In this document: in pieces, positions 16,732 through 20,127 of the stretch | How positions within the stretch are numbered: the stretch's first letter is position 1 | How the letters are laid out: every line of letters begins with the position of its first letter | Source: Acidobacteriota bacterium | Lineage (GTDB): Bacteria > Acidobacteriota > Aminicenantia > Aminicenantales > Saccharicenantaceae | NCBI GenBank assembly: GCA_039683095.1 | Contig: JBDKSB010000001.1 | Coordinates: forward strand, 450,567-514,566 | Length of the DNA stretch: 64,000 nucleotides | Reading direction: 5' to 3' | Made by a program: the position numbers and the translations under genes | The notes under the pieces: model-generated | Told to the model about the DNA's origin: nothing | What the model saw: only the letters and a program-made list of their open reading frames with translations | Databases searched by the model: none

Positions 16732-17574
16732 ATGGCGATGCGATACGGATGCGACGAGAACGATCTGGCCCATTATACGTGTTATCGAACGCTCCATAAG
16801 CCGCCGGTCGACGGCCGCCTGGACGGGCCGGCCTGGCGGGAGGCGCCGAAATCCCGGCGCTTCGTCGATCTCGTCAGCGGCGTGCCCGGCTTCCTCGAGA
16901 CGCGGCTGGCCGCGCTCTGGGACGACGAGGCCCTTTACGTCGCCTTCTGGGTGAGCGAGCCCGACGTCCAGGCCCGCCTGGCCGAGCGCGACGCGCTCGT
17001 CTGGACCGAGAACGACGTCGAGATCTTCATCGGCGGCGAGGACTGCTACTATGAATTCCAGATCAACGCCCTGGGGACGATCTACGAGGTCTTTTACGTC
17101 TGGCAGGACGCGCTGAAGAAGGGAAGCCGGTTCGACGCGCCGGAGTTCGACCTGCGCGAGCGGCGGGTCGACGTCATCGGCGGCTTCCAGGACGGCCTGC
17201 GCTACGGCCGGCACCCGCGGGGCCGGCGCTGGGCCTTCATGGACTGGGACTTCCCGGGATTGCGCGCGGCGGTCCAGGTCCGGGGCACGCTCAACGACGC
17301 GTCCGACGTCGACGAGGGCTGGACGGCCGAGATCGCCTTTCCCTGGAGCGGCATGAAGCATCTCGCCGGCGGCCGGCCGCTGCCGCCGCGCGACGGCGAC
17401 GTCTGGCGCATGGACTTCTCCCGCTTCGAGCTCCTCCGCAGCTGCGGCGTGACGGTGGAACCGCACCCGGGTTGGGCCCTCAACAAGCACGGGATCTACG
17501 ACTCCCATATCCCCGAGTGCTTTTCTTTTATCCACTTCCGAGCTGCCTTGGCTAACGCAAACGGCTCTAAATAA
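16732..17574 (+). CDS. CBM9-like carbohydrate-binding protein
   Basis: A 280-residue protein made of one CBM9-type beta-sandwich. Family features are PPVDGRLDGPAWREAP near the N-terminus, ALWDDEALYVAFWVSEPDV, WTENDVEIFIGG and YEFQINALGTIYEVFY, then DEGWTAEIAFPW. It has no signal peptide, so it is probably cytoplasmic, unlike most CBM9 proteins. The C-terminal residues AALANANGSK are encoded by a repeat that starts at 17544, so the native end has probably been replaced. GGGAGG precedes the ATG. Sugar specificity is unknown. Confidence 0.88.
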   Translation: MAMRYGCDENDLAHYTCYRTLHKPPVDGRLDGPAWREAPKSRRFVDLVSGVPGFLETRLAALWDDEALYVAFWVSEPDVQARLAERDALVWTENDVEIFIGGEDCYYEFQINALGTIYEVFYVWQDALKKGSRFDAPEFDLRERRVDVIGGFQDGLRYGRHPRGRRWAFMDWDFPGLRAAVQVRGTLNDASDVDEGWTAEIAFPWSGMKHLAGGRPLPPRDGDVWRMDFSRFELLRSCGVTVEPHPGWALNKHGIYDSHIPECFSFIHFRAALANANGSK

Positions 17575-17694
17575 AACAGATAACCGGAAATTGGGCCTGC
17601 CCATAAGCTGTTGATCCTGGCTTTTTAGGCCCTTTTTCGCGATTCCGAGGCCCATATTCACATCGGCATAGCCTGGAAAGCGTTGGTCCCAAGG
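17544..17694. repeat. Short copy of the 17-bp-TIR element
   Basis: It begins TGCCTTGGCTAACGCAAAC inside the end of the CBM9 gene and ends with a degenerate inverse (GCGTTGGTCCCAAGGC, to 17694). The interior (TCCTGGCTTTTTAGGCCC then TTTTTCGCGATTCC, near 17615-17650) aligns with the interior of the copy at 19151-19391. It supplies the last codons and the stop of the CBM9 gene. Confidence 0.7.
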
Positions 17695-17716
17695 CCGGGC
17701 CGGCAGGCGGGACTTT

Positions 17717-17746
17717 TTGCGTATGGGCGGCCGGGCTTTCTATAGT
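17717..17746 (+). promoter_or_regulatory. Promoter of the M24 peptidase gene, leaderless start
   Basis: TTGCGT (17717-17722), 18 bp, TATAGT (17741-17746). The ATG at 17759 is 13 bases beyond the -10, giving a leader of about 5-6 nt, and there is no ribosome site. Confidence 0.55.
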
Positions 17747-17758
17747 ACAATCCGCGTC

Positions 17759-19180
17759 ATGAACGCATCGCGCCGATCAGGATACGTCTTAGGATCAGCC
17801 ATCCTCGCCTTGGGGCTCATGACCGCGCTCGCCGGATGCGGCGGGCCGGATGCCAAGCCGGGCGCGCCTGGCTCCGCCGGAGCCGCTTCGGCTGAGGGGG
17901 CCGGACTGCCCGGCCTCAGGGACCGGGCGGCGCTTTACAACGGCTGGCTCAAGGAGCGCTTCGACCGCATCCTGCCGGAGATCATGCGCCGCGAGGGGAT
18001 CGATATGTGGGTTGTCGTCTGCCGCGAGCACGCCGAAGACCCGGTCTATCCGACGCTCATGCCCCAGCCGAACATGTTCGCCTGGCGCCTGTCGATGCTC
18101 GTCTTCTTCGACCGGGGCGCGGCGGCGGGAGTGGAGCGGCTTTCCGTCAACCCTTTCGGCAGCGGCGACTTCAACAAAGAAATCGGGGACTATTACGCGC
18201 CCGGCTGGACGAGCCAGGCCGAGGACCCATGGGCCCGCCTGGCGCGGATCATCCGGGAGAGGAACCCGAAGAAGATCGCGATCGACGAATCGGGGACGTT
18301 CGCCTTCGCCGACGGGCTGACGGCCGCGCTCAAGGCGGAGCTCGTCGCCGCCCTCGGGCCCAGGCTTGCGGCCCGCCTCGTTTCGGCGGAACGGCTGGCC
18401 GTCGGCTGGCTGGAGAAGCGGACGGCCGGGGAGATCGACTTCTACGCCCGGCTGGCCGCCATGAACCGCCGCGTCGCGGCCGAGGCGCTGTCCGATAAGG
18501 CCATCCAGCCCGGCGTCACCACGCTGGCCGACCTCTCCTGGTGGACGCGCGAGCGCTATGCCGCGCTGGGCGTCGAGCCCTGGTTCCAGCCGAGCTTTTA
18601 CATCGTGCGGCGGGCCGGCGGCCCTGCCGACGAAGCCCTGCGCCGGACCATCCTGCCAGGCGACCTCGTCCGCTGCGACATCGGCTTTTCCTGCCTGGGG
18701 ATGACGACCGACATCCAGGAAGCCGCCTATGTCCTGCGCGAGGGCGAGACCGAGGTTCCGGCCGGCCTGCGCCAGGCGATGCGGCTAGGCAACCGCCTCC
18801 AGGACATCCTGGCGGGCGAGTTCGCGGAGGGCCGGACCGGCAACGAGGTCCTGGCGGCGGCCCTTGGCAAGGCCCGGGCGGAGGGGATCAAGCCGAAGAT
18901 CTATTCGCACCCTCTCAATTATTACGGTCACGGCGCCGGCCCGAAGATCGGCCTGGGCGACATGCAGAACGGCGTGCCCGGCGTCGGCGACTATCCGCTC
19001 CACGCCGACACTTGCTGGGCCGTGGAGCTCAGCATCGGCGCGCCGGTTCCCGAGTGGGGCGGCCAGGAGATATCCTTCGCCCTCGAGCAGAGCGCCGTCT
19101 TCAACAGGGCCGGCGTCGTCTTTCCCGCCGGCCGCCAGACTCTTATTGGAGCCTTGGCTAACGCAACACACACAAAATAA
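17759..19180 (+). CDS. M24-family metallopeptidase (Xaa-Pro aminopeptidase-like) lipoprotein
   Basis: A 473-residue pita-bread-fold peptidase with a lipoprotein signal (lipobox LAGC, Cys28). The N-terminal creatinase-like domain runs to about residue 230. The catalytic domain has the five metal ligands: two Asp in CDIGFSCLGMTTDIQEA, His in YYGHGAGPKIGLG, Glu in WAVELSIG and Glu in FALEQSAVF. Predicted role: removal of N-terminal residues before proline, or a related cleavage, at the periplasmic membrane face. The last residues (ALANATHTK) and stop come from the repeat at 19151, so the native C-terminus is probably displaced. Start choice rests on the lipoprotein signal and the nearby promoter. 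Confidence 0.9.
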   Translation: MNASRRSGYVLGSAILALGLMTALAGCGGPDAKPGAPGSAGAASAEGAGLPGLRDRAALYNGWLKERFDRILPEIMRREGIDMWVVVCREHAEDPVYPTLMPQPNMFAWRLSMLVFFDRGAAAGVERLSVNPFGSGDFNKEIGDYYAPGWTSQAEDPWARLARIIRERNPKKIAIDESGTFAFADGLTAALKAELVAALGPRLAARLVSAERLAVGWLEKRTAGEIDFYARLAAMNRRVAAEALSDKAIQPGVTTLADLSWWTRERYAALGVEPWFQPSFYIVRRAGGPADEALRRTILPGDLVRCDIGFSCLGMTTDIQEAAYVLREGETEVPAGLRQAMRLGNRLQDILAGEFAEGRTGNEVLAAALGKARAEGIKPKIYSHPLNYYGHGAGPKIGLGDMQNGVPGVGDYPLHADTCWAVELSIGAPVPEWGGQEISFALEQSAVFNRAGVVFPAGRQTLIGALANATHTK

Positions 19181-19391
19181 ATGCAATAAGCCCGATCAGG
19201 AAGAATACCGTATCTTAAAGTCCTTGGTTTTCTGCCCGTTTTTCCGCATTTTCACATTTTTGCCTTTGGCATTTTAATCGTCAGGTTTGGGAAAGCAGGA
19301 AATTGTCCGAAAAAACCCCGAAATAAGCTGATCGGGCCCTTCGTTTTCTGAGCTATTGTTATTCTAATGAGCAGGTTGCGTTAGCCAAGGC
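19151..19391. repeat. 241-bp element with perfect 17-bp terminal inverted repeats
   Basis: GCCTTGGCTAACGCAAC (19151-19167) and its exact reverse complement (19375-19391) bound an A/T-richer, non-coding interior. An inner inverted pair (GCCCGATCAG near 19190, CTGATCGGGC near 19328) nests inside. It supplies the final codons and stop of the M24 gene and ends two bases from the stop of the convergent PlsC-family gene. There is no transposase and no obvious target duplication. It behaves like a MITE or a mobile bidirectional terminator. Confidence 0.85.
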
Positions 19392-19393
19392 AA

Positions 19394-20116
19394 CTAAGAC
19401 CCCAGCCGTTCGAGGAAGACGCGGCGGACGCGCTCGATGAGCTCGCCGGCCGTCTCCCTGGTATAGCCGGCCGTCGGCACGGCCGGCTCGATGGTCACGT
19501 TGACCAGCCCGGGCCGGATGACCAGGCTGCCCTTCCGCGCGATCTCGAAGGCCCCCTGCTGCACGATCGGCAGGATGTCGACGCCCGCCTCGATGGCCAT
19601 CAGGAATCCGCCGCGCTTGAAGGGGGAGAGCCGCCCGTCGAGCGTGCGCGTGCCTTCGGGCATGATGCCGAACGAGACCCCCGGCCGCTCCCTGATCCAG
19701 GCCGCGGCCCGGCGCAGGGTCTGGACCGCCCTGGCCGTATCCTTGCGACTCAGGGGGAACATGCCCATGCGGCTGAGGGTCGCGCCGTAGACGGGCCAGC
19801 GGAAGTGGCTTTCCTCCTCGGCGCCCCGCAGCGGCGGCGGGAAGGCGACCTGGTAAACGAGCGGGTCGAAAAAATTGACGTGGTTCATCATGGCGATGTA
19901 CTGCCGGCCGGGGACGATGTTCTCGCGGCCCCGGACGCGCAGGCGCACCCCGGCCGCCAGCAGGACGGCCCGGCAGCCGCCCTTGATGAGGGCCTCGAGC
20001 GCCCGGCCGCGGCAGAGGAAGGAGCCGATCACGATGCCCAGGCAGGCGGCGACGAACACGGGCAGGGTGACGATCCAGACGAAAAGCGACCGCAGCTCGC
20101 CGAGGCTCTCTCTCAT
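19394..20116 (-). CDS. PlsC-family 1-acylglycerol-3-phosphate acyltransferase
   Basis: A 240-residue membrane-associated acyltransferase. It has a hydrophobic N-terminal anchor (residues 11-33), the catalytic HX4D motif in NHVNFFD (His79-Asp84) and the acceptor-binding PEGTR (153-157). It is predicted to acylate lysophosphatidate to phosphatidate. It lies downstream of the lipid kinase gene (11-base gap), so the pair probably works in phospholipid remodelling. The start is ATG 20116; a GTG at 20125 is an alternative. The stop lies two bases from the terminal repeat of the element at 19151-19391. Confidence 0.9.
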   Translation of the reverse strand: MRESLGELRSLFVWIVTLPVFVAACLGIVIGSFLCRGRALEALIKGGCRAVLLAAGVRLRVRGRENIVPGRQYIAMMNHVNFFDPLVYQVAFPPPLRGAEEESHFRWPVYGATLSRMGMFPLSRKDTARAVQTLRRAAAWIRERPGVSFGIMPEGTRTLDGRLSPFKRGGFLMAIEAGVDILPIVQQGAFEIARKGSLVIRPGLVNVTIEPAVPTAGYTRETAGELIERVRRVFLERLGS

Positions 20117-20127
20117 TGGGCGCACGG

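Follow-up and report, generated by a model that had tools for sequence, protein, structure and literature searches.

Dispersed inverted-repeat elements at the 3' ends of genes in an Aminicenantes genome: very probably miniature relatives of a Y1 transposase element

In the window, that is, the whole stretch of 64,000 nucleotides analysed here, two genes on the plus strand, one encoding a CBM9 protein and the other an M24 peptidase, end inside copies of the same repeat. Both enter the tip of the repeat in the same frame and take their last codons and their stop from it, ALANANGSK in the first case and, from the arm at 19151..19245, ALANATHTK in the second. This raises the questions of what these repeats are, how they came to lie there, and why they are found where genes end. 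The original prediction was that of a repeat family supplying gene ends, with a 241-bp element carrying perfect 17-bp inverted ends and a shorter relative upstream. The long copy, at 19151-19391, is as described: its length was confirmed, its inverted ends are identical over exactly 17 bp, and its other end is separated from the PlsC stop by 2 nt. As for the shorter copy, placed at 17544-17694, the relationship stands, as it has the tip (16 bp) in common with the long one and agrees with its interior at 39 of 78 bases in an ungapped alignment; its start is shifted by one base, to 17545, and the right end proposed at 17694 was abandoned, no recognisable second end being detected there by a position-weight scan. 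Three matches to the motif occur in the window, versus 0.23 expected by chance. The features are listed in Table 1.

Table 1. Repeat elements and the genes they adjoin, in positions of the window
Feature	Position	Strand	Basis and remarks
Two-ended short element (MITE-like), 241 bp	19151..19391	.	Exact 17-bp inverted ends; lies where the M24 peptidase and PlsC genes converge
End unit (arm): tip GCCTTGGCTAACGCAAC, AT box, phased AT tracts	19151..19245	+	Ungapped 43-arm consensus, PWM scan
Second end unit, faces PlsC stop 2 nt away	19297..19391	-	Arm consensus
Single end unit; supplies CBM9 last codons ALANANGSK and stop	17545..17639	+	Arm consensus, PWM scan
Inserted stretch, about 190 bp, missing from G002	17545..17733 (right limit approximate)	+	Empty-site comparison
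CBM9-like carbohydrate-binding protein gene, element replaces 3' end	16732..17574	+	Pfam CBM9_2, CBM9_1; ORF
M24 metallopeptidase gene, element replaces 3' end	17717..19180	+	Pfam Peptidase_M24; ORF; actual start possibly 3' of 17717
PlsC-like acyltransferase gene, own stop retained 2 nt from element	19394..20125	-	Pfam Acyltransferase

The repeat is dispersed over the genome. A 17-mer allowed up to two mismatches was searched in the 3.29-Mb genome from which the window is taken, and gave 41 occurrences, versus none for the reversed word used as a control. These resolve into 13 two-ended copies of 204 to 260 bp, one copy of about 1 kb, and 15 single ends, the last a tally that varies with the motif threshold. 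A position-weight scan added one weak end and nothing else over threshold (0 matches in the control); none of the single units proved to have a degenerate second end. The unit common to all is an end of about 95 bp (95 to 100 bp), as defined by 43 ends aligned without gaps. It starts with GCCTTGGCTAACGCAA at positions 0-15, followed by a variable stretch, WGATAATAAA at 21-30 and WTA at 35-37; its inner part holds a CAGnTTAG-like block at 62-67, five Ts at 77-81, a GC block, and A-rich sequence from 88 on. Across positions 20-105, AT content is phased at 10.5 to 11 bp. Copy interiors differ among family members, so that many copies are old or diverged. A search of Rfam gave no match. Copies are clustered in a few regions of 10 to 30 kb (C4:41-68 kb, C9:43-57 kb and C11:112-150 kb), and neighbouring copies tend to resemble each other, as if spread were local. 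One pair of 1,968 bp (C12:916211-918178), considered as a candidate insertion sequence, was discarded, as its two single end units enclose ordinary host genes.

The copy of about 1 kb contains the transposase with the same ends that had been suggested as a check. The genome has two Y1_Tnp genes by Pfam search, and one of these, at C9:52929-53696, is bounded on both sides by the tip, in inverted orientation, within an element that measures 1,040 bp end to end. Its product of 256 amino acids matches PF01797 with 30.4 bits (cut-off 23) and the NCBIfam model NF047646, REP_Tyr_transpos, with 58.8 bits, which is below the cut-off of 80; the HxH and Y residues are kept by the transposase in all four aligned homologs, and no relative was found among solved structures by sequence search. 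The second Y1_Tnp gene (L074:1129-1827, on the minus strand of C9; 232 amino acids) is distant and lacks ends of this family. Short elements have the structure of the 1,040-bp element minus its transposase gene. As a Y1 gene lies between the same inverted ends in the long copy, the short ones are best read as non-autonomous, MITE-like derivatives. At the 13 two-ended copies, no flanking word in common was seen when the flanks were read by eye; lack of a target-site duplication is expected with a Y1 enzyme as partner.

The explanation that we favour, and consider very probable, is that these are lineage-specific miniature non-autonomous transposable elements, moved in trans by a Y1 (HUH) transposase and persisting mainly at stop codons. 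A full short copy would be two end units of about 95 to 100 bp, inverted with respect to each other and without the transposase gene, and many copies would be a single end unit. The mover would be the RAYT/TIRYT-type Y1 tyrosine transposase at C9:52929-53696: judging by its position between the same ends, it most likely moves the copies of the family. It presumably cleaves single-stranded DNA, as do characterised relatives in its family, and may still be active. Copies would persist mainly directly at stops, where an element would cost least because translation entering its tip soon meets a stop, whatever the frame (LG, ALANA... or PWLTQ..., each ending in a stop). Their position at gene ends could then reflect either insertion being drawn there or the purging, by selection in a compact genome, of insertions elsewhere.

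That these elements have been inserted is best seen at the CBM9 gene. Comparisons are between species, G002 being the nearest available relative; the M24 protein is 81% identical to its counterparts in the comparison genomes. Since these are different species, junctions are not base-exact, with the exception of the CBM9 site. In G002, which keeps the gene order and lacks this repeat, the CBM9 site is uninterrupted and the gene ends ...FRTAFL and stop, reading ...TTCCGGACGGCCTTTCTATAG. The window reads ...TTCCGAGCT, then has an insert of about 190 bp, and then GGCTTTCTATAG. The old end is thus found downstream of the insert, which places the insertion three codons short of the former stop, and insertion at this site is demonstrated. 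Orthologs in repeat-free relatives do not have the C-termini seen in the window: the M24 gene of G002 ends in EIHLVGAPAGAKTAK and a stop. M24 and PlsC genes are convergent, with no element between them, in both G002 and G001, and the PlsC end, ...DRLGE and stop, is the same in the two as in the window. The view of a dispersed repeat family inserted at the 3' ends of genes is thus borne out by the 41 genome copies, the same-ended transposase, and the repeat-free relatives.

The family itself has a narrow distribution. Among 12 genomes of the same genus, its motif was found nowhere, a single mismatched match excepted, and homologs of the transposase are patchy. The homologs in G011, G013, G020 and G058 each lie between inverted ends of their own, different from those of the window family. 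G020 has 42 copies of its own tip. Copies in G011 are few and built on the same 100-bp plan. In G013 there are about 30 elements, each exactly 110 bp long, which have a TGATAATAAA box in common with the window family; their interiors (L077, loci L227-L256) are strongly patterned yet variable, and two of these copies flank the G013 transposase gene itself. At a larger scale, among species-representative genomes, the enzyme is widespread, being present in Desulfobacterota, Nitrospirota, Planctomycetota, Pseudomonadota, Candidatus Aminicenantes and one archaeal MAG. Inverted ends were found at 44 of 68 wider homolog loci with flanks, versus 2 in the control; they are mostly GGGGTCGGRCC, then CTAAC and TTGATA. 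The archaeal record is a Methanococcoides MAG contig (L283) on which the homolog has GGGTCGGACC-type ends, suggesting either that it has spread across domains or that the contig was wrongly binned. In a tree of the transposases, those of the window genome, G011, G013 and three further Aminicenantes lineages form one supported clade (98/96), whose tips are of the TTGGCT type, some of them degenerate. End and enzyme have therefore changed together, and, as read from tree and tip sequences, the end sequence has switched within the transposase clade from GGGTCGG to TTGGCT types. Such a switch within one clade makes end recognition testable by swaps.

The closest known kind of element is the TIRtron, which has its own TIR-associated tyrosine transposase (TIRYT) and dispersed copies of its TIRs (Di Nocera et al. 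2013, PMC3733652; with discussion in PMC6006769) and is related to REP/RAYT systems. As in TIRtrons, a RAYT-like Y1 transposase lies between terminal inverted repeats unrelated to GTAG REPs, and the repeats form moderately abundant dispersed families of single, paired or grouped copies. The window family differs by its tip, GCCTTGGC, which is without the GGGGWSAS motif of many TIRYT ends (a motif common to many, not all, TIRs and thus an optional feature; PMC3733652), by end units of about 100 bp with AT tracts phased at 10.5-11 bp, and by its short two-ended deletion derivatives. The GGGGTCGG ends of relatives differ at one position from GGGGWSAS. With REP and REPIN-RAYT systems, the family shares a species-specific repeat population served by one related transposase gene, as well as, with REPs, a location downstream of genes, near or supplying stop codons. 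Its ends are much longer than those of REPs and REPINs, and its arms are without complementarity beyond the tips, which do pair. No GT[AG]G foot stands beside a hairpin on either side of the tip in the 43-arm logo, and GT[AG]G-footed REPs or REPINs are excluded as the family for this reason. Bacterial MITEs such as Correia/NEMIS, RUP and ERIC (PMC3733652) are likewise non-coding, 70 to 300 bp long and bounded by terminal inverted repeats, with an autonomous partner that has the same ends; here, in contrast, the partner enzyme is of the Y1/HUH type, target duplications are not seen, and interiors are diverse. The transposase fold family (Y1/HUH, PF01797) is that of IS200/IS605, whose ends bear subterminal hairpins rather than terminal inverted repeats. 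As far as we have searched the literature, this Aminicenantes family, its long phased ends, the end-type switch within one clade and a three-species comparison of gene ends are new. Together they provide a full TIRtron case in an uncultured phylum, with transposase, matching ends, derivatives, an empty site, and replicates with different ends.

Conserved ends, variable interiors, local clusters and repeats at the 3' ends of genes are also what the attC sites of a chromosomal integron's cassette array would offer. We nevertheless regard an integron as hardly conceivable here: one copy has a Y1 transposase inside it, and copies lie between convergent genes or singly within a conserved syntenic gene order. 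Moreover, the tip GGCTAAC presumably does not match the attC core. A host role deserves more thought, namely that the elements are regulatory modules at 3' ends (terminators or mRNA stabilisers) selected by the host, with mobility merely their origin. Strict positioning at stop codons and a T-run at a fixed 77 to 81 nt from the tip would fit such modules, as would the finding that whole elements, owing to their inverted ends, fold better than shuffles. The selection for terminator function envisaged in the original prediction is not supported by the sequences: three terminator-like sites were found, versus 2.7 expected, and no consistent GC hairpin precedes the T-run. An inner hairpin between the T5 and A5 blocks was likewise rejected as inconsistent among copies. 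As for a paired-arm RNA hairpin under selection, the two arms of an element resemble each other no more than they resemble arms from other elements, which argues against any paired-stem selection beyond the tips. The T/A block is present in the ends of autonomous copies too, and the repeat is absent from sister species that have the same gene order. We thus hold the regulatory explanation to be quite improbable.

Under the preferred reading, of miniature elements moved in trans, it has to be asked whether insertion is merely tolerated at stops and gene ends or is actively targeted to them, guided, for instance, by transcription termination, by single-stranded DNA or by a host factor. Genes were called with a simple codon model and have approximate starts; gaps were capped in the null model for stop proximity. 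Of 44 ends considered, 28 face the 3' end of a gene, one of them being a false match within a gene; 15 reach into the final codons and 8 begin 2 to 6 nt past the stop, five at exactly 3. In all, 19 of 29 elements touch the stop region. Fine position is non-random: the tip lies 2 to 6 nt from 8 of 12 retained stops, versus 11 to 16% expected (P 1e-4 to 5e-6), and in-gene insertions are in one codon phase in 11 of 15 cases (P 0.005). All 15 gene ends that can be compared with G002 were struck in the interval from -42 to +4 nt relative to the ancestral stop, and unrelated tips in G020 and in G001 and G002 show the same closeness to stops; those in G013 do so less. These observations speak for targeting. 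Against it, broad enrichment at gene ends is modest once the last 42 coding nucleotides are counted as a tolerated landing zone (P between 0.003 and 0.38 according to the gaps permitted). Of the idea of insertion directed to gene ends, the non-random fine position stands; insertion there may be targeted or only tolerated. Flanks have only a weak [GT][TC] preference, with no stop-like motif at 5'-facing ends, and sites are marked neither by hairpins or terminators (P 0.10 for energy, 0.37 for z) nor by homology to the tip (P 0.13). Moreover, REPs are known for the same habit: their occurrence near the 3' ends of genes, with termini that supply the stop codon, has been described (PMC3733652, section 15), and E. 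coli REPs near stops have been discussed (PMC12306157). Active targeting is, in our judgement, possible and somewhat unlikely. The family offers a clean system for asking whether REP-like elements come to lie at stops by targeting or by selection, and whether mobile elements supply real C-terminal residues.

Several observations count against our own explanation, of miniature elements inserted by a Y1 transposase: the diverse interiors of the copies, the REP_Tyr_transpos score below its cut-off, the lack of a solved relative by sequence, and a single clean site of simple insertion. At five of six two-sided sites the spacer of G002 is missing too, a loss not expected from plain insertion. The spacer may have been removed by insertion or may have turned over by other means; transposition that replaces inverted repeats is known for IS1272 (PMC5678879), which serves here as a mere analogy. 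A bolder proposal, and one we think rather unlikely, is that this Y1 group, with unrelated ends in each species, targets gene ends at the stop and replaces the spacer, and that successive families turn over there, rewriting C-terminal tails and the intergenic DNA of convergent genes. A GGGGTCAARCC family has 24 and 34 copies in G001 and G002, respectively, and one in the genome of the window. At one convergent gene end (C4:61193-61431, L032:6193-6431), different repeat families occupy the site in sister species, with ends of the window family's type here and of the GGGGTCAARCC type in G001 and G002. Elsewhere, 2 nt separate an element at C4:63564-63802 (L032:8564-8802) from the ATG of the gene that follows, and the GGAGG ribosome-binding site present there in G002 has given way to the element; the AAGG of its tip may now serve as ribosome-binding site instead.
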